A stretch of 64,000 nt of DNA from Clostridia bacterium (GTDB taxonomy: Bacteria; Bacillota; DAOUPZ01). The stretch spans positions 1-64,000 of the forward strand of contig DAOUPZ010000001.1 in NCBI GenBank assembly GCA_030625885.1, written 5' to 3'. The position numbers and the translations under genes are program-made. The notes under the pieces are model-generated. The model made no database searches and had not been told where the DNA came from. It saw nothing but the letters and a program-made list of their open reading frames with translations. Of the stretch, positions 8,707-62,152 are shown piece by piece. Positions within the stretch are counted from its first letter, which is position 1. Each line of letters starts with the position of its first letter.

Positions 8707-8713
8707 TAGACGC

Positions 8714-9001: not shown

Positions 9002-9024
9002 TTTTATAATTCCGTATAGATAAG

Positions 9025-10536: not shown

Positions 10537-10538
10537 TC

Positions 10539-11540: not shown

Positions 11541-11551
11541 AGGTGATGACC

Positions 11552-11974: not shown

Positions 11975-11988
11975 TAGTAAAGCATGAG

Positions 11989-12021
11989 AAACTGGACAAG
12001 AAAAATCTTGTCCAGTTTTTT
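11989..12021 (+). terminator. Terminator ending the nfeD-floA operon
   Basis: AAACTGGACAAGA and TCTTGTCCAGTTT pair perfectly around AAAA, followed by TTTTG. Confidence 0.9.
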
Positions 12022-12308
12022 GTATTATGAGCAGGATAACAGTTGTTGTTGATAGGACAGCGTTATGCTTTCAGGTATTTCTGAAGCTAAAGAAGGCTAT
12101 CCAAGTAGGTTTTATCATTTCTAACTTACTACTTACCTTTTGCCACTTATCGAAAGACAGCAAAGCTGTCTTTCTTAATCATTTCCTACCTGCTACCTGC
12201 TGGTTGTTACCTGCAGAAAACAACTTCAGACTGTTTTCATATTTTCTGTTTCTGATGCATAAATTTAGTAAGGGATTAAGTAAGGTTAATAAATAGAGGG
12301 GGATCATC
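12022..12308. other. Gene-free gap with a small hairpin
   Basis: No convincing gene is seen; a 90-codon frame here has no ribosome site and odd composition. GAAAGACAGC/GCTGTCTTTC at 12151-12174 forms a hairpin. The C/T-rich text TACCTGCTACCTGCTGG resembles sequences near 45420-45450, so this may be the decayed remains of repeated intergenic sequence. Confidence 0.4.
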
Positions 12309-12581
12309 ATGTCTAATAAAATAATTAAAGAACAGCTGGTAAATACCTTTGATTTACCCAAAGATGTTGTATATAATTCTGTGCGGATTACAGTTATCGG
12401 AGGAAATCAGGTAACTATAGAAAACCATCGGGGGATCATTGAATATACAGCTGATAGCATACGTGTTAATACACTTGATGGTGAAGTGTGTGTATTAGGA
12501 AAAGAATTAGTTATTAAGGATATATCTCCTGAATTGATCATTGTTATTGGGGCAATCTTAGAGATTAAAATGGCAAATTAA
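12309..12581 (+). CDS. yqfC: Sporulation protein YqfC
   Basis: A 90-residue YabP/YqfC-family protein. In Bacillus subtilis yqfC is transcribed by sigma-E in the mother cell. The sequence shows the family's beta-rich pattern (VRITVIGGNQVTIENHRGI, then IRVNTLDGEVCVLGKELVI). It starts at ATG 12309 behind AGAGGGGG and is followed after 17 bases by yqfD, its usual partner. Confidence 0.93.
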   Translation: MSNKIIKEQLVNTFDLPKDVVYNSVRITVIGGNQVTIENHRGIIEYTADSIRVNTLDGEVCVLGKELVIKDISPELIIVIGAILEIKMAN

Positions 12582-12598
12582 GGAGTGAACGTTTAATT

Positions 12599-13825: not shown

Positions 13826-14789
13826 TCATTATACTGTTAAAGTAGTTTTAGATAGTATCGCAGAAGCGCAAAATTTATTTGGAGACTATGACGAGAATTT
13901 AAAAATAATCGAAGAAAACTTTAATGTTCATTTAGTTGCACGAGGAAGTGAAATTAATATTTCCGGAAGAAACCAAGAAGTTGACCAAGTTGCGCGATTA
14001 TTTAAAGAGTTAGTTGGCCTTATTCGAAATGGCCAGGATTTAAATTTACAGCAGACTAATTATGCTATTGATTTAATTAAAACGGGTAGAACCCAAGAAC
14101 TTCACGACTTTTATGATGAAACTGTCATTATTAATTCACATGGTAAACCCATTCGTCCTAAAACAATTGGTCAAAAACAATATGTTCAAGCGATTAAAGA
14201 TCATGATATTGTTTTAAGTATTGGTCCTGCGGGGACCGGTAAGACTTATTTAGCGATTGCTATGGCAGTCATGGCTTTAAAGCGTAAAGAAGTCAGTCGT
14301 ATTATTTTAACCCGACCGGCTGTAGAAGCAGGAGAAAAGTTAGGGTTTTTACCCGGAGATTTACAGGATAAAGTCGATCCATATTTACGTCCCCTATATG
14401 ATGCTTTATATGATACGATGGGTGTTGAAACTTTTCAAAAATACATTGAACGTCGAATTATTGAAGTGGCCCCTTTAGCGTATATGCGTGGAAGAACGTT
14501 GGATGATTCTTTTATCATTTTAGATGAAGCTCAGAATACAACCCATGAACAGATGAAAATGTTTTTAACCCGCCTTGGCTTTGGCTCTAAAGCAGTTGTG
14601 ACAGGTGATATCACACAAATTGATTTACCACGAGGAAAAGTATCTGGACTTAAAAAAGCAGAAAAAATTTTAAAAAACGTAAAAGGAATTGAAATTGCCT
14701 ATTTGACAGCTAAAGATGTTGTGCGGCATCAATTGGTACAACGTATTATTGCTGCCTACGATCGGTACGATCAGAAAAATAATGAGTAG
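13818..14789 (+). CDS. phoH: PhoH-like ATPase (PhoH/YbeZ family)
   Basis: Cytoplasmic P-loop ATPase of 323 residues; the YbeZ branch works with YbeY in rRNA maturation and RNA metabolism. Walker A is SIGPAGTGKTYLAIA and Walker B is FIILDEAQNTT. An N-terminal KH-like region is present. I place the start at TTG 13818, behind AAAGGAGG at 13799-13806, rather than a longer frame from 13761 that lies inside yqfD. ybeY lies two genes downstream. Confidence 0.95.
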   Translation: MTDHYTVKVVLDSIAEAQNLFGDYDENLKIIEENFNVHLVARGSEINISGRNQEVDQVARLFKELVGLIRNGQDLNLQQTNYAIDLIKTGRTQELHDFYDETVIINSHGKPIRPKTIGQKQYVQAIKDHDIVLSIGPAGTGKTYLAIAMAVMALKRKEVSRIILTRPAVEAGEKLGFLPGDLQDKVDPYLRPLYDALYDTMGVETFQKYIERRIIEVAPLAYMRGRTLDDSFIILDEAQNTTHEQMKMFLTRLGFGSKAVVTGDITQIDLPRGKVSGLKKAEKILKNVKGIEIAYLTAKDVVRHQLVQRIIAAYDRYDQKNNE

Positions 14790-32932: not shown

Positions 32933-33159
32933 GTTCTCTCTATATATAAATATTTAGCTTGCATAAGCATCTTGAATAATAAATTTGTATACTATAGAAA
33001 TCTTTTATTTGAATCTATAAACTGTAAGGCGTAAAATGATAGAGACGTCGGTTGAGATAATCATGATTGCTTATTTTAGAAGAATGTAAAGGTTTTTAAA
33101 GTGTTATACTATAGTACAAGATAGTAATAATCATATTATATTAGAAGGAGAATTTGAAT

Positions 33160-34512
33160 ATGAAAAAAAGAAGCATGTATTTGCCTTTGATACTGGTTTT
33201 GGTAATGAGTTTTCTTACTTTTTCAGGATGTAATGCAGCAAAAGAAAAGGATGAGACTATTGATCAAGGGAAAATGAACATTTCTACAAAAGAGTTAGCA
33301 GAACAATTAGACAATCCAGAATTAGTTGTGGTTGATGTGCGAAGTGAAGCATCATATAATGGTTGGCAACTTGAAGGAGAAGCAAGAGGCGGACATATTG
33401 AAGGGGCTATTGACTTTCCAATGTCCTGGACGAAAGACGTAAAAGAAAAAGATTTAAAATTAATGTTAGAAGCAAAAGGGATTACAACAGATAAAACAAT
33501 TGTTGTGTATGATACAAAAGGTAATCAGCGTTCTGCAATGGTTGAACTACTTACTGGACTTGGTTATGAAAATTTTCGTTCTTATGATGCTGGAATAGAG
33601 GAATGGGCAGCTGATGAAAATTTACCGATGAATAAACTGGTAAATTATGAAAAGTTAGTTCATCCTGCATGGATTAATGAGCTCATTAAAGGTGAAAATC
33701 CGGATACTTACCCTGGAAAAGGATATAAAATATTTGAAGTTAGTTGGGGAGAACCCAAAGAATATAATAAAGGACATATACCAGGGGCTTTACATTTAGA
33801 TACGAACTTAATTGAAGAAGAGCCGTTGTGGAATCGTGTTTCAGATGCAGATATAGAGGCGATGCTTTTAGCAAATGGTGTTACTTATGATACAACAGTT
33901 GTATTGTATGGTAGTGATACGACGGCTGCTGCTCGTGCAGCATCTATTATGATGTATGCGGGGGTAGAAGATGTTCGCTTGTTGAATGGTGGATTTGAAG
34001 CCTGGAAAGCTGCTGGTTTTGAGGTAGAAACTGAAGCACAGAAACCAGAACCGGTTAAAGGATTTGGGGTTAAGGTACCAGCTCATCCTGAGTATATTAT
34101 TGATACTGAGGAAGCAAAGGCAATTTTGGCAGATGATAATGCAGAATTGGTCAGTATTCGAAGCTGGGCAGAATATATTGGTGAGACTAGCGGTTATACT
34201 TATATAGAACCTAAGGGACGTATTGATGGTGCTGTATGGGGTCATGCAGGGTCTGATGCATATCATATGGAAGACTTTAGGAATGTTGATAATACGATGC
34301 GTAATTATCATGAAATAGAAGCGATATGGAAAGAGTGGAACATTACCTCTGATAAAAAAGTTTCCTTTTTCTGTGGAACGGGTTGGAGAGCAAGTGAAAC
34401 GTTCTTTGATGCTTACCTAATGGGTTGGGATAATATTTCTGTATACGATGGCGGCTGGTATGAATGGAGTATGGATCCATCTAACCCAGTAGAATCTGGG
34501 GAACCTAAATAG
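33160..34512 (+). CDS. ynjE: Triple-rhodanese lipoprotein, YnjE-like sulfurtransferase
   Basis: 450 residues: lipoprotein signal (LTFSGC) and three rhodanese domains at about 45-160, 175-290 and 320-445. The first two have lost the active Cys (VVYDTKGNQRSAM, VVLYGSDTTAAARA). The third keeps it (FFCGTGWRASE). E. coli YnjE has the same three-domain plan with one active Cys. A ynjBCD-type transporter lies 2.3 kb downstream, as in the E. coli ynj cluster. Likely role: moving sulfane sulfur (or selenium) outside the membrane. ATG 33160 is chosen from the AAGGAG spacing. Confidence 0.85.
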   Translation: MKKRSMYLPLILVLVMSFLTFSGCNAAKEKDETIDQGKMNISTKELAEQLDNPELVVVDVRSEASYNGWQLEGEARGGHIEGAIDFPMSWTKDVKEKDLKLMLEAKGITTDKTIVVYDTKGNQRSAMVELLTGLGYENFRSYDAGIEEWAADENLPMNKLVNYEKLVHPAWINELIKGENPDTYPGKGYKIFEVSWGEPKEYNKGHIPGALHLDTNLIEEEPLWNRVSDADIEAMLLANGVTYDTTVVLYGSDTTAAARAASIMMYAGVEDVRLLNGGFEAWKAAGFEVETEAQKPEPVKGFGVKVPAHPEYIIDTEEAKAILADDNAELVSIRSWAEYIGETSGYTYIEPKGRIDGAVWGHAGSDAYHMEDFRNVDNTMRNYHEIEAIWKEWNITSDKKVSFFCGTGWRASETFFDAYLMGWDNISVYDGGWYEWSMDPSNPVESGEPK

Positions 34513-34531
34513 AAGCGCATTCAGTCAATAT

Positions 34532-34565
34532 AGACAACACTTTATGATTTGGTGTTGTCTTTTTC
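34532..34565 (+). terminator. Terminator after the triple-rhodanese gene
   Basis: AGACAACAC and GTGTTGTCT pair, followed by TTTTT. Confidence 0.85.
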
Positions 34566-34589
34566 CTATTTGAGATGGAGGTAGAAACT

Positions 34590-35105
34590 TTGAAAGTGAG
34601 AAGAGAAAAGTTACTTACATGTAATAATATAAATAAAGTTTTTTCAAAGATTGTTGAACAAATTTTGCCGGTCACATCATGGGTTATCTTCATGATGAGT
34701 TTAGTTTTACAGATTGGTGTTCAAAACAGAATGGGCATTCAAAGAGATTTAATTGTTCGGAATAAAAAATTAGCTGCTACGGTTTTTTCCACGACTTATT
34801 TGGAAGGTTACAAATTAATTTTAATAGCAGGGATTGCATTTTGTATCATATTATTTATTTGGAAGCGGAAAATATTTTCTCATCAAAATATATCGATATT
34901 AAAGTGGCCTTTCTCATATAGGTGGAGAAAATATTTAATCTATACTTTAGCGGTCAGTATCTTAGGGATTATTATGCTTGCATTTTATAATTCAGTGTCA
35001 TGGTTAGCTTATCCATGGATGCTATTAAGTGTATTGATCATGGTTATTGTGCAATATAGCCGTTTATTATACTTAATTTTTTTTACCCCAAATTTGTTTA
35101 AGTAA
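34590..35105 (+). CDS. Uncharacterised membrane protein, DUF4395/DoxX-like in appearance
   Basis: About 171 residues with four predicted membrane helices (PVTSWVIFMMSLVLQIGV, LILIAGIAFCIILFIW, YLIYTLAVSILGIIMLAFYN, WMLLSVLIMVIVQYS). I do not recognise the family with confidence. I place the start at TTG 34590 because GGAGGT lies just before it. Its end overlaps by 33 bases the convergent TVP38 gene, so the two genes share their 3' region. Position between two rhodanese genes suggests a link to the same pathway. Confidence 0.65.
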   Translation: MKVRREKLLTCNNINKVFSKIVEQILPVTSWVIFMMSLVLQIGVQNRMGIQRDLIVRNKKLAATVFSTTYLEGYKLILIAGIAFCIILFIWKRKIFSHQNISILKWPFSYRWRKYLIYTLAVSILGIIMLAFYNSVSWLAYPWMLLSVLIMVIVQYSRLLYLIFFTPNLFK

Positions 35106-35753
35106 GAAAAAGAAAACACTTAAAGAAAATAATATGAGAAGTCCAAATACAAATTTCTTTGTTCCACCTACTAACATATCGCCTACGTAAGAATAGATGA
35201 TGGTTGCTGGTAATTGCCCAAGCCCTGTTGCCCAGAAAAAGGACCAGAAACTCATTGAGGTTAATCCTGCAGCGTAGCTCACAATGTCAAAAGAGATGAA
35301 AGGCAGTAAGCGAGCGATTAAAATGGCATATTTACCGTATTTATCGAAAAACCGATCGACATTCTCTAATGCGAATTTGCTTGTTAATTTTTCTACCACT
35401 TCTCTTCCATAAAATCGAGCAATGTAAAAACATAAAACGGCTCCCGCCATAGCACTAGACCAGGATAAAAGTGCCCCTTTGACCCATCCGAATAAACTAG
35501 CATTGGCAAATGTAATCATAAATGCCGGCAGGGGAGCCATAACGGATTGAAAAATCATTAATAAGAAAGAAATAATAGGAGCCCATATGCCAAATGATAA
35601 TATATATCCTTTTATTAAACTAACATCTAGCATGCGAAAGATTAAAAATAATTGTTTGACTGTATTTTGCACGGGTTTAATAAAAAAATAGATAGCTGCA
35701 AAAAGCAAAAGAATACCAATTTTGATCCAAGTGGATTGTTTAAGTTGTTTCAA
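35073..35753 (-). CDS. TVP38/TMEM64 (DedA-like, VTT domain) membrane protein
   Basis: 226 residues with five to six membrane helices and the VTT-domain core (AFMITFANASLFGWVKGALL, RLLPFISFDIVSYAAGLT). Family members are possible lipid scramblases or transporters; in bacteria they are often next to rhodanese, mercuric reductase or arsenosugar genes. A second member is encoded at 43403. It converges with the previous gene. On this strand it lies downstream of the small rhodanese gene but is separated from it by a terminator. Confidence 0.9.
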   Translation of the reverse strand: MKQLKQSTWIKIGILLLFAAIYFFIKPVQNTVKQLFLIFRMLDVSLIKGYILSFGIWAPIISFLLMIFQSVMAPLPAFMITFANASLFGWVKGALLSWSSAMAGAVLCFYIARFYGREVVEKLTSKFALENVDRFFDKYGKYAILIARLLPFISFDIVSYAAGLTSMSFWSFFWATGLGQLPATIIYSYVGDMLVGGTKKFVFGLLILFSLSVFFFLLKQIWGKKN

Positions 35754-35814
35754 TTAGATCACACAACCTTTCATTAAATTTTCATTATAATATTATACTA
35801 TAAAAAATTAATAT

Positions 35815-35850
35815 AAAACCCCTTCCTTATTTAAAGTAGGAAGGGGTTTT
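35815..35850. terminator. Bidirectional terminator between rhodanese and TVP38 genes
   Basis: AAAACCCCTTCCT and AGGAAGGGGTTTT form a perfect 13-bp stem. Confidence 0.88.
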
Positions 35851-35862
35851 ATAGGGAATAAA

Positions 35863-36324
35863 TTACTTTTCTAAAAGTGCTTCATAAGGCCAGCCTGATT
35901 GACCGTTTTCTAAGATAAAGAGGCGATCTTTAGCAATTTCATTTTCAAGAAAATATTGATATGTTCTTTGTGCACCGCTTTTACCACCAGGGCAGACAAT
36001 GATGATCGGATTTTCAGAATCTTTAAGTTCAGGTAATACGGGATCTAATTTTGCTTTTTCTTCTTCTGTTTTGACAGGGTAAGCATAGGTAGGAATAACA
36101 CCTTTGATATGATGTTGATTAAACGCTTCTTCAACTTGAATATCTACAATTGTAATTGATTCATTTGCTTCTATACTCTGTTTTAATTGTTCAGCAGTAT
36201 AATACGTAAATTCTGATTCCTCCGGTTGCTCTGCTTGTTGAGGTGCTGTTTCTTGTGAGCAGCCTACAATTAGAAATACGGAAAGGATTGCCAGCAGCCC
36301 TACTAAATAAAGTGATTTTTTCAT
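35863..36324 (-). CDS. Single-domain rhodanese lipoprotein
   Basis: 153 residues: lipoprotein signal ending LIVGC (residues 18-22), a short Q/E-rich linker, then one rhodanese domain with active Cys in IIIVCPGGKSGAQRTY. It is predicted to sit on the outer face of the membrane and take part in persulfide transfer. Together with the three-domain YnjE-like protein it gives the cluster two extracytoplasmic sulfurtransferases. GAGGAG lies upstream of ATG 36324. Confidence 0.9.
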   Translation of the reverse strand: MKKSLYLVGLLAILSVFLIVGCSQETAPQQAEQPEESEFTYYTAEQLKQSIEANESITIVDIQVEEAFNQHHIKGVIPTYAYPVKTEEEKAKLDPVLPELKDSENPIIIVCPGGKSGAQRTYQYFLENEIAKDRLFILENGQSGWPYEALLEK

Positions 36325-36791
36325 GTTTCATTTCTCCTCTCAAAGTTTTTTGATCTTAACTGGACTTGATTATATACAACTATATTTAAATAATCAAATT
36401 AAAAAACTTTATAATGATTAGCGTTTGAATAAGAGAAATCAATACCCGCTTCTAATAGGGTCCCTTGTGTAAGAAGGTGTTTTGAAAACAATTTATTACA
36501 TATGTCTAATTGCATACTGTTTTTTAGAATATTAAATGGATAAATGACAGAAAATGATTATGTATTGTGATGTATTCATATTTTCAATAATCAATTCAAA
36601 TATTATAAATATTTTCAATACTAGAAGTTAAAGCATAAGTATATAAACCTAAAATATATTGATGTATAATATTGTAATTGGATAAATGATTCAACGGCAG
36701 AATAACATTCGAATTGAATTTTTAACCCGTTAGTGTGAGTGACAGAAACGCTCGCTGAACGCCAGAAAATGATTGATGGAGGAGAACATAA
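36325..36791. other. Divergent intergenic region before the ynjBCD-type operon
   Basis: 467 bases between divergent genes, very AT-rich. TGGATAAATGA occurs twice (36536 and 36679 regions), possibly operator half-sites. An imperfect hairpin, CGTTAGTGTGAGTG...CGCTCGCTGAACG, lies at 36729-36762, just before the substrate-binding protein gene. I see no TPP or other riboswitch core here. Confidence 0.4.
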
Positions 36792-38027
36792 ATGAAGAAA
36801 ACATCCTATACGTTGTTGGTATTTATTTTGATTTTTAACTTGGTGGGTTGTGGGCAACAAAATATGCCAGTGGATGAAAGTGTTTTGGAAGCAGATTGGG
36901 AAGCGATTACTGAAAATGTGAAGGGGACAACTGTTAATTTTTATGGTTGGGGTGGAAGTGAAAGAACCAATCGGTGGATTGACGAATATTTGAAAAAAAG
37001 AATTCAGGAAGAATATCATATCACCTTAAATAGAGTGCCGATGGATATTGACAATATATTAAGTAAGCTTTTAGGAGAAAAGCAGCAAAATGTTGAAAAA
37101 GGGACGATTGATATCGTATGGATTAATGGTGAAAATTTCTATACTGCCAAGAATAATGAATTGCTTTATGGGCCATTTACGGAAAAATTACCTAACTTTA
37201 ATGACTATATTGATCAAGATTCTGTAGAAGTTAAAACGGACTTTGGGTTTCCAATCGATGGTTATGAAGCACCATATGGCAAGGCTCAATTTGCGTTGGT
37301 ATATGATCAAGAAAGATTGGATCAAGCGCCTAAGAATCATTTGGAATTATTAGAAATGGCAAAGGATAATCCCGGAAAATTTACTTATCCTGCGCCGCCG
37401 GACTTTACGGGCAGCGCTTTTGTCAGAAACGTGATTTATGATATTGTGGGGTCTGAACAGTTTATGGATATGGAACCTAATCAAGAAATTGTTCGAGAAG
37501 CTGTTCAGCCAGCCATGGATTTTTTAAAAAGATTAAAGCCTTATCTTTGGAACCAAGGTAAGACGTATCCTGCAACGATTGCGCAATTAGATAATATGTA
37601 CGCCGATAATGAAGTGTTTAACACGATGACATACCACCCATACGCTGTTGCAGGACGAATTGCTACAGGAACGTTTTCATCTGGTAGTCAAATTTTCTTA
37701 TTTGATAAAGGAACAATAGGGAACACGCATTTCTTAGCGATACCTCAGAATGCGCCCAATAAGGCGGGGGCCTTAGCAGTGATTAATTTTATTCTAAGCC
37801 CGGAAGCACAGGCATCTAAATATGATCCTGAGAATTGGGGAGATCTATCCGTTTTAAGCTTTGATCAGTTAAGTATAGAAGAAAAGAAACGATTTGAAGC
37901 TATAAAAATAGGTGAAGGTGTTTTACCGATAGAAGAACTATTAAGTCACAGGGTACCGGAAATGCCTGCTGACTTAATACCAATCATTGAGGACATTTGG
38001 TCTGAAAATATACTAAAGGGTGAATAA
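36792..38027 (+). CDS. ynjB: ABC transporter substrate-binding lipoprotein, YnjB-like
   Basis: 411 residues: lipobox LVGC (residues 17-20) and a type II periplasmic-binding fold (TVNFYGWGGSERTNRWID, GTIDIVWINGENFY, PAPPDFTGSAFVRNVIYD). The sequence matches the YnjB family, which is paired with YnjC and YnjD. The ligand is not known; thiamine-like and sulfur compounds have been suggested for relatives. It starts the four-gene transporter operon behind GGAGGAG. Confidence 0.9.
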   Translation: MKKTSYTLLVFILIFNLVGCGQQNMPVDESVLEADWEAITENVKGTTVNFYGWGGSERTNRWIDEYLKKRIQEEYHITLNRVPMDIDNILSKLLGEKQQNVEKGTIDIVWINGENFYTAKNNELLYGPFTEKLPNFNDYIDQDSVEVKTDFGFPIDGYEAPYGKAQFALVYDQERLDQAPKNHLELLEMAKDNPGKFTYPAPPDFTGSAFVRNVIYDIVGSEQFMDMEPNQEIVREAVQPAMDFLKRLKPYLWNQGKTYPATIAQLDNMYADNEVFNTMTYHPYAVAGRIATGTFSSGSQIFLFDKGTIGNTHFLAIPQNAPNKAGALAVINFILSPEAQASKYDPENWGDLSVLSFDQLSIEEKKRFEAIKIGEGVLPIEELLSHRVPEMPADLIPIIEDIWSENILKGE

Positions 38028-38030
38028 ACA

Positions 38031-38903
38031 TTGAGAACAAGGTATAAGCCGTATATTTTGCTCATCCCGGTTACCATTGTGCTTTTAGGTATTTTTTTAT
38101 CCGGCATTAGCATTGGTCTTTTGCAGAGTTTGGGTTACTTCCCTGCTGTAGGGCTCAGGCAAATGACTTTAAAGTATTATAAAGAGATATTGGCAGACCC
38201 AGGCTTTTTAGCATCCTTGAGATTCAGTTTATATACCGCCTTTATCTCTTCTGTTTTAGCTGTGATCATGGGCGTGTTGCTAGCCTATTCCATCCTGCAA
38301 AGCAAACAAAAAAAAGGAATTGAAGAGCTGGTTTATAAACTGCCGATTATCGTTCCGCATACGGTAGCAGTGATACTTGTCTATAATATTTTTTCTCAAA
38401 GCGGCTTGCTGTCTCGGTTTTTATTTCATTTAGGCTTTATTAATGAGCCCACCCAATTTGCATCAGTGCTGTTTAATCGAAATGGTTTTGGCATCATTTT
38501 CGCTTATTTATGGAAAGAGATCCCTTTTGTGGCCATGATTGTTTATACTGTACTTGGTAATATGAATGATAAATTATCAGAAACTGCATTAAATTTGGGG
38601 GCGAGTCAAAAGCAGGTTTTTTGGCATGTTCAGCTGCCCTTAATCATGCCATCTATTGTTTCTGCCTTTATTATTATATTTGCGTTTTCATTTGGTGCGT
38701 TTGAAGTGCCTTTCTTATTAGGACCCACCTATCCCCAAGCTTTACCGGTAAAAGCTTATATTGAATATACACAGCCGGATTTATTAAATAGACCGTATGC
38801 AATGGCCATCAATATGGTCTTAATTTTTATGGTGATTGTGTTTATCGGGATATGTCATAAAATTTTTAGGATTTTCTATCAATACGATGGGAGTAAAGAA
38901 TGA
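38031..38903 (+). CDS. ABC transporter permease, YnjC N-terminal half equivalent
   Basis: 290 residues with six membrane helices and the coupling motif ETALNLGASQKQVFWHVQLP (EAA loop). E. coli YnjC is one long protein with two such halves; here the halves are separate genes. It starts at TTG 38031, three bases after the binding-protein gene. It overlaps the next permease by four bases. Confidence 0.9.
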   Translation: MRTRYKPYILLIPVTIVLLGIFLSGISIGLLQSLGYFPAVGLRQMTLKYYKEILADPGFLASLRFSLYTAFISSVLAVIMGVLLAYSILQSKQKKGIEELVYKLPIIVPHTVAVILVYNIFSQSGLLSRFLFHLGFINEPTQFASVLFNRNGFGIIFAYLWKEIPFVAMIVYTVLGNMNDKLSETALNLGASQKQVFWHVQLPLIMPSIVSAFIIIFAFSFGAFEVPFLLGPTYPQALPVKAYIEYTQPDLLNRPYAMAINMVLIFMVIVFIGICHKIFRIFYQYDGSKE

Positions 38904-39709
38904 AAAGGATAAAAAAATCAGGTTATACTTTGCTAATGAATACCATTATTTTCATACTGGGTTTTCCGCTGATTGTTTTAGTGATATGGAGCTTTACAAA
39001 GAGGTGGCCTTGGCCCTGCATGTTTCCTAAGGCGTTTGGGATCAGATCATTTCAATATATGATTAGTCCAGGCAGCAATACTTTGCAAGTGTTGATAGGC
39101 AGCATTTGGCTATCTATTGTTGTAACGCTCATTACCTTGCTGATTAGTATTCCTGCCGCGAGAGCATTAGGCATATATCATTTTAAAGGAAAGAAGTTAT
39201 TCAAGATGGCGATACTGGCTCCAATTATTGTTCCTCCTGTAGCAACTGGTATGGGGATTCATGTGGCGTTTATCAAAATGGGATTGGTGAATACATTTAT
39301 GGGGGTTGTACTGGTTCATTTAATTCCCTGTTTGCCTTATGGTGTCCGAATCTTGACAAATACATTTGAAATTACAGGAAAATCTATGGAAATGCAGGCC
39401 AAAGTTTTAGGTGCAAGTGGATTACAAGCTTTTTTTTACATTACACTTCCCTTAATTGCACCGGGATTAATGGCTGCATCCAGTCTGGTTTTTATTGTGT
39501 CTTTTAGTCAATACTTTTTAACATTTTTGATTGGCGGAGGAAATGTGATCACTTTCTCTATGATGATGTTTCCGTATATTCAAAGTGGTGATCGGATGAT
39601 GGCATCGGCATATAGTCTTGTTTTTGTATTGACAATTTTTGTTTTGCTTATCGTGATGGAGAAGATTGTAAAGCGTTATTACAAGACTCATAATCATTTT
39701 TATATATAG
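38900..39709 (+). CDS. ABC transporter permease, YnjC C-terminal half equivalent
   Basis: 269 residues, six membrane helices, EAA loop EMQAKVLGASGLQAFFYITL. ATGA overlap with the previous permease shows translational coupling. With it, this subunit would form the membrane channel of the importer. Confidence 0.9.
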   Translation: MKRIKKSGYTLLMNTIIFILGFPLIVLVIWSFTKRWPWPCMFPKAFGIRSFQYMISPGSNTLQVLIGSIWLSIVVTLITLLISIPAARALGIYHFKGKKLFKMAILAPIIVPPVATGMGIHVAFIKMGLVNTFMGVVLVHLIPCLPYGVRILTNTFEITGKSMEMQAKVLGASGLQAFFYITLPLIAPGLMAASSLVFIVSFSQYFLTFLIGGGNVITFSMMMFPYIQSGDRMMASAYSLVFVLTIFVLLIVMEKIVKRYYKTHNHFYI

Positions 39710-39719
39710 GAGAAAAGCC

Positions 39720-40751
39720 ATGTTTGAAATCGAAATAAAGCATGTTTTAAAATCTTTTGACAACAAGAAAGTATTAAAAGACATTAACTTTTCTGTGAAA
39801 GAGGGAGAAATGATTACCCTATTAGGACCTTCCGGGTGCGGGAAAAGTACAACTTTGAAAATTATTGCTGGACTATTAATGCCTGAACAAGGTGATGTAT
39901 TGTTTAACGGACGTTCCGTTTTAAATATTCCGGTTGCTAAAAGGGGCGCTGTTATTGTATTTCAAGAGTATCTTTTGTTTCCCCATATGACAGTAGAAGA
40001 TAATATCGGTTTTGGCCTAAAAATGGCTAAGATGCCTAAAAACAAGCGAGCGGAACGGGTAAAAAAAATGCTTCAACTTGTGCAATTGGAGGCATGCAGT
40101 AAAAAGCTTCCCGATGAACTTTCAGGCGGGCAAAAGCAAAGAGTTGCGATTGCAAGGGCTTTAGCCATAGAACCTCAAGTATTATTATTAGATGAACCCT
40201 TTTCCAATTTAGATATTCGGCTTAGAGAGACGATGCGCTCATTTATTTGTGAACTGCAAAAAAAACTGAAAATCACAACTATTTTAGTGACGCATGATAA
40301 AGAAGAAGCGCTCATGGTTTCTGATCGTATAGCTGTGATGCTGGATGGGGAAATTGCCCAATACAGTGTACCCATGGAACTGTATGAAACCCCCATTTCC
40401 CCTAGGGTTGCGGATTTTTTAGGAGAAAAGAATTACATTTGCGGGAACATTGATAACGGCGTATTTTATTGTTGTTTTGGTAAATATAAAGTGCATACGA
40501 ATAAACAGGAAGAAGTTAAGGCTATGATTAAACCCGAGGATGTTGAAATGATGCCTTTAGATCATAAGAGGGCAATACAGGGACGTGTGAAGCAAAAGCG
40601 ATATACAGGAGATCGAATGCATTATATCATTATATCTAAAGAGATGGAAATTAAGTGTATCACTACGTTAAAAAGCGTATTTGAAATTGGAGAAGAAGTT
40701 TCATTAGATATCCTGTGGGATAAAGTTGTTTTTTATCAGAAAAATAAATAA
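39720..40751 (+). CDS. ynjD: ABC transporter ATPase, YnjD/CUT1-like
   Basis: 343 residues. Walker A LLGPSGCGKSTTLK, Q-loop VFQEYLLFPHM, signature LSGGQKQRVAIARA, Walker B LLLDEPFSNLD, and a C-terminal TOBE-like region from about residue 240. This is longer than E. coli YnjD (about 217 residues) because of the added domain, so it could also be called PotA/ThiQ-like. It completes the importer. The next gene starts 12 bases later, so glycosyltransferases and importer share one operon. Confidence 0.9.
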   Translation: MFEIEIKHVLKSFDNKKVLKDINFSVKEGEMITLLGPSGCGKSTTLKIIAGLLMPEQGDVLFNGRSVLNIPVAKRGAVIVFQEYLLFPHMTVEDNIGFGLKMAKMPKNKRAERVKKMLQLVQLEACSKKLPDELSGGQKQRVAIARALAIEPQVLLLDEPFSNLDIRLRETMRSFICELQKKLKITTILVTHDKEEALMVSDRIAVMLDGEIAQYSVPMELYETPISPRVADFLGEKNYICGNIDNGVFYCCFGKYKVHTNKQEEVKAMIKPEDVEMMPLDHKRAIQGRVKQKRYTGDRMHYIIISKEMEIKCITTLKSVFEIGEEVSLDILWDKVVFYQKNK

Positions 40752-40763
40752 GTTGGTGATGAT

Positions 40764-41438
40764 GTGATATCAATCATTATTCCAGTTCTAAATGAAGAAA
40801 AAACCATTGAGAAACTTCTTGTGCAGATTAATGAATTAAAAGAAGATAAAGAAATCATTGTAGTAGATGGGGGAAGCAGAGATCGGACTTCTAGTATTGC
40901 TTCAAGATATGCAAAAGTGATTCATAGTCAAAAAGGCAGGGCAAACCAAATGAATGCAGGTGTAAAGAAGGCTAGTGGGGATATATTATGGTTTATCCAT
41001 TCTGATAGTATGATAAATGGACATGCTCTTGATGATATTGAGAAGACCATTGAAGCAGGTTATATTGGTGGGGGATTTTCACTGTATTTTTACGATTTTG
41101 ATTCAATATTAATGAGATATATTGCTAAAACATCGAATTGGCGGGCTAAATATATCGGCTTGTTTTTTGGGGACCAGGGGTTATTTGTAAAGCGTCATAT
41201 TTTTCAGCAAGTCGGTGGATACCCTCTAATAGAAATTATGGAGGATTGGGAATTAGCAATGAGGCTCAAAAGGGTAGACAAGATGAAACTTTTGGGTTCT
41301 TTGATTGGTACTTCGGGCAGGCGATTTAAGAAAAAAGGTGTTTTCAAAACACTGTTATTCATGCACAAAATTAAGTTTTTATATATGATTGGGGTACCGC
41401 CAGACAAATTAAGTGAAATGTACAGGGAGGTTCGATGA
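40764..41438 (+). CDS. TIGR04283-family glycosyltransferase
   Basis: 224 residues of the GT2 fold: MISIIIPVLNEEKTIEKLL, VVDGGSRDRT and SQKGRANQMNAGVKKASGD, then LWFIHSDS. This start-to-motif pattern defines the TIGR04283 family, named rSAM/selenodomain-associated transferase 2 and later arsenosugar biosynthesis glycosyltransferase. The sugar acceptor is unknown. GTG 40764 is behind GGTGATGAT. The stop overlaps the start of the TIGR04282 gene, the usual partner. Confidence 0.92.
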   Translation: MISIIIPVLNEEKTIEKLLVQINELKEDKEIIVVDGGSRDRTSSIASRYAKVIHSQKGRANQMNAGVKKASGDILWFIHSDSMINGHALDDIEKTIEAGYIGGGFSLYFYDFDSILMRYIAKTSNWRAKYIGLFFGDQGLFVKRHIFQQVGGYPLIEIMEDWELAMRLKRVDKMKLLGSLIGTSGRRFKKKGVFKTLLFMHKIKFLYMIGVPPDKLSEMYREVR

Positions 41439-42145
41439 TGGATGCACTTATATTGATGACAAGGGTACCTGTTCCTGGAAAAACAAAAACGCGATTAATG
41501 GAAATTTTATCTGGAGAAGAATGTGCTCAAATTCATCGATGTTTTCTTTTGGACTTGTTTAATATGTTAAATCGTATCAACCTAGATATCGATGTTTTTT
41601 TAAGTTATACACCGGATCCTAGTTTTTCCATTATGGCGGATATGATTCCTGATGATATCGAATGTTTCCCTCAAAGGGGTGAAGGTTTAGGAGAAAGGAT
41701 GTTAAATGCCATAGATGATTTGTTTAAAAGGAATTACGATAAAGTTGTATTGATCGGTACGGATATACCGGATATTCAACCTGTCGATATTAAGAAAGCA
41801 TTTGCAATTTTAGACCATAAGGATGTTTGTTTAGGGCCTACAGCAGATGGCGGATATTACTTAATAGGCATGAAGCAACTCTATCCGGAATTATTTGGTG
41901 AGCAACTCAAGTGGGGTAATCGTTCAGTATTTGAGAGTACTGTAGATATAGGCAATAGACAAAATTTGAAAGTGGGTCTTTGTTCTAAACATCGGGATAT
42001 AGATACCAAAGAAGACTTGTTTGCTTTGAAAGAAGGAATCTTAAATGGTGGATTAGATGAGCAAATGATACCTAAAAATACGTTTGAGTTTATCAAAAAA
42101 TGTTGGAGTGGTGCTGAGAATGTTAAAGGAATCATTAATGGGTAG
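41435..42145 (+). CDS. TIGR04282-family glycosyltransferase (CofC-like fold)
   Basis: 236 residues: ALILMTRVPVPGKTKTRL at the start, VLIGTDIPDIQPVDI in the middle, then LGPTADGGYYLIGM. These are the hallmarks of TIGR04282 (rSAM/selenodomain-associated transferase 1), a nucleotidyltransferase-like enzyme. It overlaps both neighbours by a few bases, so three genes are translationally coupled. The missing partner in the window is ArsS, the radical SAM protein. Confidence 0.92.
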   Translation: MMDALILMTRVPVPGKTKTRLMEILSGEECAQIHRCFLLDLFNMLNRINLDIDVFLSYTPDPSFSIMADMIPDDIECFPQRGEGLGERMLNAIDDLFKRNYDKVVLIGTDIPDIQPVDIKKAFAILDHKDVCLGPTADGGYYLIGMKQLYPELFGEQLKWGNRSVFESTVDIGNRQNLKVGLCSKHRDIDTKEDLFALKEGILNGGLDEQMIPKNTFEFIKKCWSGAENVKGIING

Positions 42146-43136
42146 AATTACAGATTACTTGAAACATAATACAATAAGTCGCGATCTGGAATTAAACAAT
42201 GGATTTGAAGTAAGCTTTTTAGCACAGGGCGAATACAACATCAATTTTGTTATTGAAGGTAATGGAAAAAAATATGTGTTTCGAGTGAATACAGGAAGCC
42301 AATTACAGCTTGATAATCAAATTAGATATGAATATGAGGCGCTTAAAACTTTAGAAGTCAGTGGTGTTACCCCAAAAGTTTATTACGTAGATGATACGAA
42401 AGAAGATTTGGAATATGGTGTTTTAATTATGGAATTTTTAGCAGGGAAACCGTTGAAATATGATAAAGATTTAAAGAAAGCAGCGCATATATTTGCTAAA
42501 ATTCATTCTTTAAATTTAAATGATATAAATACGAATCACTTTCTTGTGGAAAAAAGCCTATTCAGCGATCGAATAGAAGAAGCTGAAAGACTTTTGCATG
42601 AATTTCTTTGCACCTCGGTAGTGGATAAAAGGCTTAAACATTTTTTTGTTAAATACTTAGAATGGGCTAAAGGGCATAAAAAGGAGGAAAAGTTTTTTTT
42701 AGAAAATCCATGGTATGTGATCAATAATACTGAAGTCAATTCTCATAATTTTATTATTGGGAAAGAGAACAGCTATCTCATTGATTGGGAAAAGCCAGTT
42801 ATCAGTGATCCCTGTCAGGATATTACCCAGTTTCTAGCAGAGACAACAACACTTTGGAAAACAAATCATATTTTAAGTGAAGCAGAGAAAAAATTTTTTT
42901 TTAAAAACTATACAAAATGTCTGGGAATAATGGATCAAAATATAGAAGAAAGAGTAGCACTATATATGCCTTATCTTTATTTAAGAGCTTTATCCTGGTG
43001 TGCCTATGCCTGGGTAGCGTACCATAAACCGAATAAGGCTATTAAAAATAGGGATACTTTCAATAAAATAAAAGCCTATCTAGATATCTATTTTATGGAT
43101 AAATTACTAAAAGGAAGCGGCGTTGTTTTAAAATAG
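42138..43136 (+). CDS. Phosphotransferase (APH/choline kinase-like) with altered catalytic loop
   Basis: 332 residues with a protein-kinase-like fold: KKYVFRVNTGSQLQLDNQIR with a Glu-containing helix, then NNTEVNSHNFII and YLIDWEKPVISDPCQDITQF. The usual catalytic loop HxDxxxxN reads NTEVNSHN here, so the catalytic Asp is replaced. The metal-binding Asp of the DxE motif (IDWE) remains. It may phosphorylate a sugar or act as a binding protein. ATG 42138 overlaps the preceding stop and is chosen from AAAGGA at 42125. Confidence 0.8.
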   Translation: MGRITDYLKHNTISRDLELNNGFEVSFLAQGEYNINFVIEGNGKKYVFRVNTGSQLQLDNQIRYEYEALKTLEVSGVTPKVYYVDDTKEDLEYGVLIMEFLAGKPLKYDKDLKKAAHIFAKIHSLNLNDINTNHFLVEKSLFSDRIEEAERLLHEFLCTSVVDKRLKHFFVKYLEWAKGHKKEEKFFLENPWYVINNTEVNSHNFIIGKENSYLIDWEKPVISDPCQDITQFLAETTTLWKTNHILSEAEKKFFFKNYTKCLGIMDQNIEERVALYMPYLYLRALSWCAYAWVAYHKPNKAIKNRDTFNKIKAYLDIYFMDKLLKGSGVVLK

Positions 43137-43156
43137 CCGTCTTTCTTATTATATAT

Positions 43157-43286
43157 AATGTAATAAAGAATTTACATTTCGGGTTTGCAGGAAAAGCGAA
43201 GGCAAGATTGGGGACATTCCACGAGGCACGAGTGGTGTGTCCCTATGTTGCAAGAGCATTTCTAAATGCAAAATTTTTATTGCAAA
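43157..43286. repeat. Dispersed element, family R1, copy 2
   Basis: About 130 bases with the R1 pattern: ATAAAGAATTTACATTT at the left, AAATGCAAAATTTTTATTGC at the right. The central GGGGACA...TGTCCC core holds CACGAGGCACGAG. It lies between the phosphotransferase and TVP38 genes. Confidence 0.8.
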
Positions 43287-43402
43287 GCATATATAAATAT
43301 TTTCTATACATATAGATCAATTCATTAATTATCTCTATTTGTTTTATGGCCTTATCTACGATTATAATAGTTGTGGATTAAGCATATGTGGAGGTATCAT
43401 GA

Positions 43403-44068
43403 ATGTTAAAAAACAATAAAAAGCGTATTATAGCAGGTGGTTTATTAATCGTTATGCTTATTTTTATGTATGTTTGTCATAGTAATGGGATATTTAGAAA
43501 TTGTACGGCGGAAAGTGTAAAGGATTATGTGAATTCTTTTGGTTCATTAGCACCGCTTGTATATATTGTCATGTTTACTTTTGTACCTTTAACCTTATTT
43601 CCGGATTCCGTATTAGTGATATCGGCAGGCATGCTATTTGGCATTTATGCTGCTGCAGTTTATACCATGATGGGTGCGATTTGCGGAGCGACTCTTGCCT
43701 TTTTTCTTTCAAGGTTTCTTGGAAAGGATTTAATAGAAAAATTATTACAGCATAAAGGAGGGCAAATTGTAGAGGAAATTGGGAAAAAAGGATTTATATT
43801 AATTTTAATCCTTAGACTCATCCCTTTGGTGCCTTTTGATGTCATTAGTTATGGTGCAGGACTTTCGAAAATTAAGTATGGGGACTTTATCTTCGCAACC
43901 TTATTAGGTATTATACCAGGTGTTTTGGTGTTTACCAATCTGGGAGATAAGGCAGGGAATTTGGGTTCAATAGAATTTCTTGAAGCTTTGGTAATTTTAG
44001 GGTTATTACTTGTTACATCTTATTTAATGAGAAAAAAGATTTCTTTTGGTGGGTATGAAAGTGAATGA
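43403..44068 (+). CDS. Second TVP38/TMEM64 (VTT domain) membrane protein
   Basis: 221 residues with five to six helices and the VTT core (FPDSVLVISAGMLFGIYAAA, LRLIPLVPFDVISYGAGLSK). It is related to the minus-strand protein at 35073. In arsenosugar-type clusters a TVP38 protein commonly accompanies TIGR04282 and TIGR04283. GGAGG lies about 10 bases before the ATG. The Fe-S protein gene follows after 35 bases. Confidence 0.92.
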   Translation: MLKNNKKRIIAGGLLIVMLIFMYVCHSNGIFRNCTAESVKDYVNSFGSLAPLVYIVMFTFVPLTLFPDSVLVISAGMLFGIYAAAVYTMMGAICGATLAFFLSRFLGKDLIEKLLQHKGGQIVEEIGKKGFILILILRLIPLVPFDVISYGAGLSKIKYGDFIFATLLGIIPGVLVFTNLGDKAGNLGSIEFLEALVILGLLLVTSYLMRKKISFGGYESE

Positions 44069-44103
44069 TTAGATGGGGATAGAGGCTAAGAAAGCAGGGA
44101 AAT

Positions 44104-45243
44104 ATGAAAAAAATAGTTTTAACCGATAAAATCAGAAAGCAAGCAATAGACTTTGGAGAGCGATGTTCAGGATGTAATCTTTGTATGCAAAATTGTCCTA
44201 TGCTCTCTTCTTTTTGTGATACACCTAAAACGTTATTACAGGAAATTGGCATAAAAGGAGAAGTCAATCCATCTCTTGCTTATTCCTGCTGCTTGTGTGA
44301 TTATTGTTCGCAGGTATGTCCCAGAGGGATTGACCTGAAAGCGTTGTTTTCTGAGATGAGACAGCATCAATTTCAGGGCTATTTTGACTCAGTTAAGAAG
44401 ATGGGGTATTGGATTATAAAATCACATCAAAAAAAAAGCTTTTCAAAGCTATTTAGGAGTCAGACCGATCAAGGGGATGTAAAAGAAAACAAACGCGCCT
44501 TTTTTCCAGGATGCAGCTTGATGGCGTATAGCCCTGAATTGGTGATGAAAACATATGGCTATTTAAAGAATATAGATTTTAATATAGAATTGATCGTAAA
44601 TTGTTGTGGCAATCCCACTCATGCTATAGGGGACCATGCACAATTTAATGAATATTATAAAACATTAGAGGAACAGGTTGAAGAAACGGGAATAGAGGAA
44701 TTGATCGTAGCTTGTCCTAATTGTTATCAAATGATTTCAACTAAGCGTCCAGAATTAAAAGTGACATCCATATGGCTGGATATTGCTAAACAGGGTGTTC
44801 CGGAAACAGTTAAAGGGATAGGTGAGAACCTTAATATCAGTTTTGCTATTCATGATCCCTGTCCAACCCGAAAAGAAACAGAAATTCATGAAGCGGTGCG
44901 GGAAATATTAAGAGAACTTGGTGTAAACATTCAAGAGTTTAAGTTTTGCAGGGAGAAAACATTGTGTTGTGGGGCTGGCGGTATGGTTGGAATCACCAAT
45001 AAACCGATTGCGACGCAACAAATGCAAAAGAGAGCCAACCAGACAGCAGCATCACATATTGTTTCTTATTGCGAATCCTGTGTGGAATCCATGATTCAAG
45101 GGGGAAAGAAGGCCGTTCATTTATTAGATCTCATCTTTAATGAATCCATGTATGAAAGGAATAGCTTTAATCAAAGGAAAGAGACTTCTTTAAAAAAGTG
45201 GGTCAATCGTTATAGAATGAAACAATGTATAAAGAAGATGTAA
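44104..45243 (+). CDS. (Fe-S)-binding protein, GlpC/HdrD-like
   Basis: 379 residues. Two 4Fe-4S ferredoxin motifs (CSGCNLCMQNCP, CCLCDYCSQVCP) are followed by two cysteine-rich CCG domains (FFPGCSLMAYSPEL...VNCCGNP, and KTLCCGAGGMVG). Such proteins pass electrons to or from membrane quinones, disulfides or lactate/glycerol-3-phosphate dehydrogenases. In this cluster it is the only obvious redox enzyme and may reduce an oxidised sulfur, selenium or arsenic intermediate. This role is inferred from position only. Confidence 0.9.
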   Translation: MKKIVLTDKIRKQAIDFGERCSGCNLCMQNCPMLSSFCDTPKTLLQEIGIKGEVNPSLAYSCCLCDYCSQVCPRGIDLKALFSEMRQHQFQGYFDSVKKMGYWIIKSHQKKSFSKLFRSQTDQGDVKENKRAFFPGCSLMAYSPELVMKTYGYLKNIDFNIELIVNCCGNPTHAIGDHAQFNEYYKTLEEQVEETGIEELIVACPNCYQMISTKRPELKVTSIWLDIAKQGVPETVKGIGENLNISFAIHDPCPTRKETEIHEAVREILRELGVNIQEFKFCREKTLCCGAGGMVGITNKPIATQQMQKRANQTAASHIVSYCESCVESMIQGGKKAVHLLDLIFNESMYERNSFNQRKETSLKKWVNRYRMKQCIKKM

Positions 45244-54062: not shown

Positions 54063-54413
54063 ATTGAGTTCGCATTCTTTGTTTGAAAATGAAGAGGTGT
54101 GAAATAGTAATGAGCCTTGTGTATGATTAAAAACAGCTAAAACATTACATTGTTAAATCATTTCTGAAATATTCGTCACGCTTTTATTTTGAACCTACAG
54201 AGTGAATTCGGGAGTTCTAAATCTGGATGTTTGATGTATCAAGCCCAGTGTAAGTCCATTTATGGCAGGGGAAGATAGCGGCATTCATGCGGACACCCAC
54301 CTATCGAGAGATAGGTATCAAAATTAAAGCAACGGTATTTCGGATAACTTATTATATTAAATAAAGGATTTTGCAGGTTTTCTAAAGTGAAAACACGCAA
54401 GGTCTTTTTTTAT
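54063..54413 (+). ncRNA. Structured non-coding RNA, 6S-like
   Basis: A promoter, about 350 bases without an open frame, and a hairpin terminator (TTGCAGGTTTTC/GAAAACACGCAA then seven T) make a complete RNA gene. The block GACACCCACCTATC, GAGA, GATAGGTATCA near 54292-54320 parallels the GACAC..CACCT hairpin near the 3' end of 6S RNA, the RNA that binds RNA polymerase holoenzyme. A second hairpin, CTGG..TTGAT/ATCAA..CCAG, lies at 54222-54246. The mature 5' end is unclear, and the unit is longer than most 6S RNAs. The class assignment is from memory of the family. Confidence 0.5.
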
Positions 54414-60714: not shown

Positions 60715-61860
60715 GTGGAAAAAAATTCCAAACAGTCCTGCTGAGTGGTTGAAGAGAAAACCTCCAGTTTGGAAGGTTTAAGTGAAAAAGATATCTTTAT
60801 TAAAGAGGGTGAGGAAGAAATATCATATCACGCGATTCATCATGCTATTAAAAGATGGGTTAAAATTGATGATAAGCGAATCCCGATCATTGACACTCAG
60901 CTTAAAACGAAAGATTATTTGGGATCATGTATGGTTAGGCTTGGAATTGGCAGATATGATTATAAAATCCCACCGGGATTATATGGGGTGGGGCATGTGG
61001 ATGAAAAAAGTCCTGTTATTGTTACTGCCAATTTTAAGTTAACCTTTGATTGTTTAAGAAAAGAATTGACAGAAAGTGGCTATTGGATTCTAGTTTTAGA
61101 TACGAAAGGTATTAATGTATGGTGTGCTGCTGGGAAAGGAACGTTTGGTTCCAGAGAATTAATCTATCAGATTAATAAGTGGGAACTTAAAAAAGTGGTT
61201 AAAACACGAAATCTGATTCTGCCTCAACTAGGCGCAACGAGTATGGAACCTCATTTGGTTAGAAAATATACTGGATTTAAAGTGATGTATGGGCCAGTAA
61301 GAAGTGTGGATATACTCAATTATATTGAACAAAATTATGAAGCGGATGAAGACATGAGACGGGTAAGTTTTAGTTTGAAGGAACGACTGGTTTTAACGCC
61401 TTTAGAAATAATTTTAAATATGAAATATGTAGGTATGTTCTTTTTATATTTTTTGTTGCTAAATATATTTAATGGTACAGCAGAAATTTTGACAAAAAGC
61501 TTTTATAATACGCTGCCATTTATGATGGCAAATTTGACTGGTTCTCTCGTGTTTCCTATAATACTCCCATTAGTTCCCTTTAGGAGTTTTTCATTAAATG
61601 GTGGGTTGCTAGGCGTCTTGTTAGGCAGTTACATTTTATACGATTTTAGGATTTATACGTATCCGGAAAGCTTTTGTTTTAAATTAGGCATTTTCCTATT
61701 ATTAGTGATGTTTGTTTCTTATATTGCATTTAATTTTACCGGTTCAACAACGTATACTTCTTTTTCAGGTGTTAAAAAAGAGACAAGAATGTTTTTCCCT
61801 GCTTTATTGATAAAGGTAGGTGTGGGATTTATTCTAACGTTGATTGGAATACTTTTATAA
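60715..61860 (+). CDS. hgcA: Mercury methylation corrinoid protein HgcA, candidate selenoprotein
   Basis: HgcA transfers a methyl group from its corrinoid to Hg(II). The cap-helix motif NVWCAAGKGTFGS has its cobalt-ligand Cys codon at 61123. A CFeSP-like corrinoid domain (about residues 45-180) is followed by four or five membrane helices (about 225-380). hgcB follows. The only good ribosome site, AGGAGGGG (60701-60708), serves GTG 60715. That frame reads EKNSKQSC and then TGA (60742-60744) before continuing VVEEKTSSLEG to the end. No ribosome site precedes GTG 60745. AAACCTCC/GGAAGGTTT at 60758-60779 could be the SECIS. Selenocysteine is inferred; otherwise the start is at 60745 or the gene carries a nonsense mutation. 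Confidence 0.9.
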
Positions 61861-61872
61861 GGATGTGTTGTG

Positions 61873-62139
61873 ATGAAGTTTAAGTACCTCAAAAATGTTG
61901 TGACGCTGGAATTAAATAGAGAAGCGTGTATTGGGTGTGGGTTATGTAAGATGGTTTGTCCGCATAGGGTTTTTCAATTGGAAAACCGGAAGGCAATCAT
62001 TACAGATAAAGAAAAATGCATGGAATGTGGTGCTTGTGCTTCTAATTGCCCGGTAGACGCCATAAAGGTTGACAGCGGCGTCGGTTGTGCGGCAGCAATG
62101 ATTAATAAAATTTTGGGGAGCAAGGGAGGATGTTGTTAA
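61873..62139 (+). CDS. hgcB: Mercury methylation ferredoxin HgcB
   Basis: 88-residue ferredoxin that supplies low-potential electrons to the HgcA corrinoid. Two 4Fe-4S motifs (CIGCGLCKMVCP and CMECGACASNCP), one extra conserved Cys (VGCAAAM, residue 72) and the C-terminal GGCC pair are exactly the HgcB pattern; the Cys pair is thought to bind mercury. It starts at ATG 61873 (or GTG 61870), 12 bases after hgcA, with AAGGATG upstream. The two genes form one operon. Confidence 0.96.
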   Translation: MKFKYLKNVVTLELNREACIGCGLCKMVCPHRVFQLENRKAIITDKEKCMECGACASNCPVDAIKVDSGVGCAAAMINKILGSKGGCC

Positions 62140-62152
62140 AAGGAATTTTTGG

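Follow-up and report, generated by a model that had tools for sequence, protein, structure and literature searches.

Background

The locus described here (positions 33154-45243) lies in a 64,000-nt stretch of contig DAOUPZ010000001.1 of a Clostridia bacterium (assembly GCA_030625885.1). The whole stretch is called the window, and all coordinates without a further label refer to it. In this locus, the genes of a YnjBCD-type importer are followed by those of two glycosyltransferase families, TIGR04283 and TIGR04282, and a kinase-like protein. The counterpart of the importer side is found in Escherichia coli K-12, in which ydjX, ydjY, ydjZ, ynjA, ynjB, ynjC, ynjD, ynjE and ynjF are arranged in a row (NC_000913.3 1833401-1841403). 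In an FNR study, the FNR-regulon table includes ydjXYZ-ynjABCD (PMC3688515), and another paper describes the activity of YnjE on thiosulfate and 3-mercaptopyruvate as poor and its natural substrate as unclear (PMC10215317). The RefSeq label for YnjE of E. coli is molybdopterin synthase sulfurtransferase. A literature search on the ynj and ydj names and on YnjE found no paper giving the substrate of the importer.

The counterpart of the glycosyltransferase side is the arsenosugar neighbourhood of the radical SAM protein ArsS, in which TIGR04167 (ArsS) is accompanied by TIGR04282 and TIGR04283, two families named for arsenic and automatically annotated as arsenosugar glycosyltransferases. Literature searches on arsenosugars found nothing on the gene neighbourhoods of these transferases, and searches on the two families and their partner names found no description of a linkage to ynj genes, most subscription papers lying outside their coverage. 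AmgK/MurU and LicA/LicC provide a further point of comparison, as pairs of an anomeric or alcohol kinase and a nucleotidyltransferase.

Our analysis revealed that the ynj importer, the kinase and the glycosyltransferase cassette form a widespread, little-described bacterial gene cluster. As our leading but tentative explanation, we propose that the locus is an import-fed variant of the TIGR04282/TIGR04283 neighbourhood, in which the importer and the kinase replace the supply by ArsS or another radical SAM enzyme.

Organization of the locus

The locus comprises the following genes.

33154-34512 (+): YnjE orthologue with three PF00581 stretches (three rhodanese domains), predicted to be exported, with a lipobox-like signal
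34575-35105 (+): membrane-type protein, no family given; a relative adjoins a TIGR04283 locus in another genome (G111, L106)
35073-35753 (-): VTT (TVP38/DedA-like) protein 1, PF09335 107.5 bits
35863-36324 (-): single-domain rhodanese lipoprotein with the active-site Cys, PF00581 42.2 bits
36792-38027 (+): YnjB-type substrate-binding lipoprotein, NF008633 494 bits (cut-off 203)
38031-38903 (+): permease 1, YnjC N-half type, from the recurrent gene order
38900-39709 (+): permease 2, YnjC C-half type, from the recurrent gene order
39720-40751 (+): YnjD-type ATPase, PF00005
40764-41438 (+): TIGR04283 family 2 glycosyltransferase, 251.6 bits (curated cut-off 182)
41435-42145 (+): TIGR04282, CofC-like nucleotidyltransferase/glycosyltransferase, 203.5 bits (curated cut-off 134)
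42084-43136 (+): APH/choline-kinase-like kinase with an altered catalytic loop, from PF01636 (44.7 bits), fold and loop alignment
43403-44068 (+): VTT protein 2, PF09335 107.5 bits
44104-45243 (+): dicluster Fe-S protein with two CCG domains (HdrB/GlpC-like), the C-terminal half of the NF045663 architecture

The seven genes from ynjB through the two permease genes, ynjD, TIGR04283 and TIGR04282 to the kinase gene (36792-43136) run on one strand, overlapping or separated by no more than 12 nt, and form one operon. TIGR04283 begins 12 nt after ynjD and overlaps TIGR04282 by 4 nt, and the kinase frame, which as listed begins at TTG and may really start further in, overlaps TIGR04282. VTT gene 1 and the rhodanese lipoprotein gene sit between the triple rhodanese gene and ynjB, but they lie outside the importer operon because they are on the opposite strand.

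An earlier, sequence-only reading of this region had named these genes, and all were found in their places; its 12-base gap between ynjD and the first glycosyltransferase gene and its single operon for uptake and sugar transfer were confirmed by annotation. Its two TVP38 proteins and second rhodanese are also present, although one VTT gene and the rhodanese gene do not belong to that operon. Its GlpC/HdrD-like Fe-S protein is real as well, but its match to NF045663 is confined to the C-terminal half, at 254.8 bits and thus below the cut-off of 530; another ynj locus (L009) encodes this half as a fusion with a pyridine-nucleotide-disulfide oxidoreductase. In the YnjE orthologue, the active-site-loop Cys, as read from the sequence, is confined to rhodanese domain 3.

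Recurrence of the importer-cassette linkage

We surveyed 398 genomes drawn from the phylum of the source organism. As individually named loci we used the best 80 among 178 YnjB matches, a set biased towards the type of the window, so that frequencies were taken from the 398-genome sample where possible; the window copy (L001) was excluded from locus counts, and the fetched loci served to build the accessory profiles, whose thresholds we set ourselves. TIGR04283, YnjB and ArsS were above the cut-off in 25, 29 and 11 genomes, respectively. YnjB and TIGR04283 were present together in 6 of the 398 genomes, compared with about 1.8 expected (Fisher p 0.006), and shared one locus in five of them (G000, G046, G176, G361 and G381). 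In the sixth (G085), the kinase and nucleoside hydrolase genes lie beside ynjBCD, and the glycosyltransferase pair is on a different contig. The association of uptake with sugar transfer put forward in the sequence-only reading has therefore withstood the neighbourhood survey.

Among the named genomes, ynjB lies beside TIGR04283 in 31 of the 80 fetched loci (32 of 81 including the window), which span Alkalithermobacter, Clostridium carboxidivorans, C. drakei, C. magnum, Tissierella, gut Oscillospiraceae and one Treponema contig. Three kinds of gene order were found: ynjD-TIGR04283-TIGR04282-kinase, ynjD-TIGR04282-kinase-TIGR04283 and a cassette divergent from ynjB. Because the same gene set has been assembled repeatedly, we argue for one function. 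None of 20 arbitrary 20-kb control windows, taken from 8 genomes within this phylum, contained any locus family at the thresholds used, and chance proximity is ruled out by these controls together with the recurrence.

Alternation of radical SAM partners with the importer and its kinase

In the 25 TIGR04283 genomes, the locus contains a radical SAM gene in 16 cases (8 ArsS, 4 BioB-like and 4 ArsS-like, the last, in G079, G210, G146 and G160, being assigned by clustering with ArsS and not by TIGR04167, which had no match there at E 1e-50), ynjBCD in 5 and both in none. In G132, TIGR04283 is accompanied by the kinase and a nucleoside hydrolase, ynjB not being in the stretch, and neither partner type is present in the TIGR04283 stretches of G085, G285 and G024, the last of which has ArsS on another contig. 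The kinase marks this division: it was found in all six importer- or hydrolase-type TIGR04283 loci versus none of the 16 radical-SAM ones (p 1.3e-5). Across all loci compared, 40 of the 41 kinase loci also contain ynjB and none contains ArsS, and the kinase occurs only beside ynjBCD or the nucleoside hydrolase. Among 42 ynjB loci flanked by 8 kb or more on each side, 18 have TIGR04283 together with the kinase, and the remaining 24 have neither. A contig end cuts TIGR04283 in L076, which thus has the kinase without a complete TIGR04283, and a 6-kb contig (L097) has TIGR04283 and ynjB and no kinase.

Gain and loss of these genes are also correlated. In a YnjB tree restricted to the 65 ynjB loci that have 5.5 kb or more of flanking sequence on each side, a minimum of seven changes of the TIGR04283 state is required by well-supported branches; among seven independent pairs on this tree, the kinase tracks TIGR04283 in about six and goes the opposite way in none (sign test p 0.03), and TIGR04282 tracks it in about seven (p 0.016). 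In the TIGR04283 tree (57 of 58 rows, one of under 180 aa being dropped), ynj-linkage needs at least four changes on the starred branches, and the window copy groups with eight other ynj-linked copies. It is thus probable that the TIGR04282 and TIGR04283 families have a second, import-fed role, and the alternation of radical SAM partners with an importer that brings its own kinase casts doubt on their automatic arsenosugar label.

YnjB and ArsS were seen together in none of the 398 genomes, a weak result given an expectation of 0.8. ArsS was also not found in 31 of 32 further genomes with the importer and TIGR04283 (those of the 31 fetched ynj-TIGR04283 loci and of L076). The exception is C. 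drakei, in which ArsS lies on another contig than the ynj locus, with genes for a BioB-like radical SAM protein, a C_GCAxxG protein and an AhpD-like protein, and without TIGR04282 or TIGR04283 within the 20-kb stretch. The BioB-like family that adjoins ArsS there (L148, 7859-10808) also stands beside ynjB in six other loci and beside TIGR04283 in four; its L148 member had no NCBIfam match.

Several accessory genes are common to both kinds of neighbourhood. Of the 29 sampled ynjB loci, 20 have VTT genes, 16 rhodanese genes and 15 the Fe-S family; the corresponding counts for the 16 radical-SAM TIGR04283 loci are 13, 9 and 3. Genes of the YedE type (8 of 29) and TusA (7 of 29) accompany sampled ynjB loci and none of the radical-SAM loci, which hints at sulfur or selenium chemistry in loci with the importer.

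Arsenic and selenium genes in the source genome

In profile searches of the source genome, which is rated 98% complete, neither ArsS (best 32.8 bits, cut-off 300) nor ArsM (best 51.4 bits, cut-off 263) was found above its cut-off. A standard arsenosugar operon elsewhere in the genome, which would have told against the sequence-only reading, is thereby ruled out. The selD gene, for which that reading had suggested a search, is present (G000:C20:47285-48208) and carries an in-frame TGA, so that SelD of this organism is itself a probable selenoprotein. An IU-type nucleoside hydrolase was not found in the source genome.

Proposed pathway and structural evidence

In the pathway that we propose, YnjBCD would import a small organic compound that, judging from the matches of the YnjB model, is probably sugar- or nucleoside-like. 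In many relatives, though not in the source genome, a pentose would be released by a nucleoside hydrolase encoded nearby, as the conserved positions of this enzyme suggest. The APH/choline-kinase-like enzyme may phosphorylate the imported compound, in keeping with its fold, and TIGR04282, which is akin to CofC-type guanylyltransferases, may activate the phosphorylated compound as a nucleotide sugar. TIGR04283, a member of glycosyltransferase family 2, would pass the activated sugar on to an acceptor that may be a lipid. At the membrane, the product or its sulfur or redox state could then be acted on by the VTT proteins, the Fe-S protein and the exported rhodaneses; all of these are found at ArsS loci as well, and the E. 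coli operon has VTT and rhodanese genes. We infer the reaction order and the acceptor solely from the families to which the proteins belong.

The YnjB model (predicted local distance difference test, pLDDT, 91) has sugar, glycoside, dinucleotide and glycerophosphodiester binders as its best VIA-align matches (Z 26.5-28.6). The structure prediction suggested by the sequence-only reading thus gave neighbours that lean towards sugars, but many folds tie, and the fold searches do not settle the ligand. The kinase model (pLDDT 92) is nearest in fold to choline kinases including LicA (Z 21-23), the closest being 3fi8 (Z 22.8, 3.3 Å over 293 residues), and its matches include the N-acetylhexosamine kinase 4wh1 and LicA 4r77. 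The catalytic loop motif of APH/choline kinases is HxDxxxxN; in all 28 aligned kinases, T-E-x-N replaces x-D-x-x and the final Asn is kept. Alignments were made from sequences chosen for diversity and full length (43 of 81 YnjB, 28 of 34 kinase, 20 of 48 hydrolase and 17 of 26 TIGR04282 sequences), with the start coordinate of one TIGR04282 row moved inwards. The DxDN, DD, ELN and WD positions of nucleoside hydrolases serve metal and ribose binding, and the hydrolase of the relatives keeps them in the alignment. This hydrolase belongs to a subfamily with an insertion between DxDN and DD that is almost always found beside ynjB (L018 7295-8215 (-) and 49 other loci).

A broader version of this proposal is that these loci form a second, ArsS-independent route to glycosylated modified ribosides across anaerobes, with a precursor imported via YnjBCD rather than made by radical SAM chemistry. 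The FNR-regulated ydjXYZ-ynjABCDEF genes of E. coli would then be part of this pathway family, and the compound handled would be a membrane glycolipid that bears sulfur, selenium or arsenic, or a precursor of such a lipid. We regard this extension as speculative and rather unlikely to hold in full.

Alternative explanations

Several observations weigh against an import-fed glycosyltransferase pathway. TIGR04283 is missing from 24 of the 29 sampled ynjB loci, and 19 of the 29 contain a CDP (cytidine diphosphate)-alcohol phosphotransferase instead; the importer thus has at least one role without the glycosyltransferase cassette. The kinase occurs without TIGR04283 in the stretches of L008, L039, L059 and L131, and its activity is not assured, given the altered loop. 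Foldseek places iron, polyamine and hexose-phosphate binders first for the YnjB model, and the source genome lacks the hydrolase that would act in relatives. The first of these points also fits two adjacent but separate modules, one for YnjBCDE-type uptake and sulfur chemistry and one for glycosyl transfer, which would be regulated together or travel jointly without sharing a substrate. The separation of the glycosyltransferase pair from ynjBCD on different contigs in G085 agrees with this view; the tight gene overlaps, the existence of several gene orders and the correlated gain and loss of the kinase and glycosyltransferase genes on the YnjB tree do not, and we consider it a somewhat unlikely account. 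The CDP-alcohol phosphotransferases would fit salvage of a lipid head group, similar to LicA/LicC: YnjBCD would import a polyol or amino-alcohol, the choline-kinase-fold enzyme would phosphorylate it, and TIGR04282/TIGR04283 or, in other loci, a YnjF-type CDP-alcohol phosphatidyltransferase would build it into a membrane lipid. The nearness of the kinase fold to choline kinases, the lipid-translocase type of the VTT proteins and the presence of UgpB among the fold matches of YnjB are consistent with this scheme. It has no place, however, for the nucleoside hydrolase found in 26 of the 42 well-flanked loci; the phosphotransferase, present in 9, never occurs together with the hydrolase, and the kinase loop is unlike that of choline kinases. 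Salvage of this kind therefore appears unlikely, slightly more so than separate modules.

Two further explanations are, in our judgement, improbable. Under organoarsenical scavenging, the importer would take up arsenosugars or arsenical nucleosides made by other organisms, and the cassette would re-glycosylate them. TIGR04282, TIGR04283, VTT and rhodanese genes are indeed common to ArsS loci, C. drakei combines an ArsS locus lacking an adjoining glycosyltransferase pair with a ynj locus that has one, and the BioB-like gene adjoining that ArsS recurs in six ynjB loci. However, neither ArsM nor ArsS reaches its cut-off in the source genome, the importer is widely spread among gut anaerobes and is also present in E. 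coli, whose ynj stretch showed no arsenic gene, and nothing indicates arsenic as the ligand. The other, equally doubtful explanation is molybdenum-cofactor (Moco) metabolism, in which YnjBCD would import a pterin or Moco-derived nucleotide to be processed by the kinase and the hydrolase. In its favour is one locus (L131, genome G222), in which ynjBCD, the kinase and the nucleoside hydrolase (8652-14626) lie between moeA and moaA-moaC-MOSC-moaB, with a riboswitch at 8168-8294, about 360 nt upstream of ynjB; the RefSeq name of YnjE and the TusA genes near ynjB also accord with it. In an Rfam scan of the window and 41 ynj loci, this was the only Moco riboswitch (RF01055) at ynjB, being found neither in the other 40 loci nor in the window, and for this reason we keep Moco metabolism as a rival reading; a thiamine pyrophosphate element in L069 is more than 9 kb from ynjB. 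The L131 riboswitch may, however, serve the downstream moa genes, and apart from L131, Moco genes are near ynjB only in L064. Moreover, a delta-ynjE strain is described in one paper, with results not shown there, as having normal Moco-dependent phenotypes (PMC3831636).

We therefore return to the import-fed variant as our tentative explanation. The product may or may not be the glycosylated sulfur, selenium or arsenic metabolite that the sequence-only reading had envisaged. Its interpretation was half right: the union of uptake and sugar transfer is real, but it is part of a conserved neighbourhood, with no evidence yet for arsenic.

Other features of the window

Downstream of the locus, the window contains hgcA, a mercury methylation gene (60745-61860 (+); NF040863 374.6 bits, cut-off 275). 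Directly 3' of it, at about 61873-62140 (+), a short frame that resembles a ferredoxin, has two 4Fe-4S motifs and ends in Cys-Cys reads as hgcB, which makes the source organism a candidate mercury methylator. A 6S RNA gene (RF00013, 58.6 bits) is located at 54158-54350 (+).

Comparison with known systems

The kinase of the window, like those of AmgK/MurU and LicA/LicC, has the APH/choline-kinase fold and lies beside a small nucleotidyltransferase gene; however, identity in the fold matches listed is 8-18%, and the catalytic loop differs. With the ArsS arsenosugar neighbourhood, the locus shares the same glycosyltransferase pair and recurring VTT, rhodanese and Fe-S genes. It differs in lacking ArsS, ArsM and the TIGR04169-type AhpD protein, in place of which it has the importer and the kinase.

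Its importer side is closest to E. coli. Over 405 aa, the triple rhodanese shares 47% identity with YnjE of E. coli, the solved structures nearest to it being those of YnjE (2wlr and 3ipo), and the YnjB proteins are 34% identical; the VTT profiles score 175.8 on YdjX and 237.7 on YdjZ. YnjB, YnjD, YnjE and two VTT proteins are thus present together in both, and what the sequence-only reading had called a composite island is not an ad hoc assembly, since its two VTT genes, importer and YnjE all belong to the E. coli set. There are differences: the E. coli permease is single and fused, whereas the window has two permease genes, and the E. coli stretch has YdjY, YnjA and YnjF but neither the kinase nor TIGR04282/TIGR04283. 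Profiles built from relatives found no YdjY-domain protein and no YnjF-type CDP-alcohol phosphotransferase in 25001-55000 of the window, where the CCG-type Fe-S protein takes the place of YdjY. YnjB occurs in 29 of the 398 sampled genomes of the phylum as well as in E. coli. Through the alternation of partners described above, the orphan E. coli ynj operon gains a partner set by which its substrate becomes directly testable. The locus is largely the E. coli ydjXYZ-ynjABCDEF neighbourhood to which a kinase/glycosyltransferase cassette has been added.

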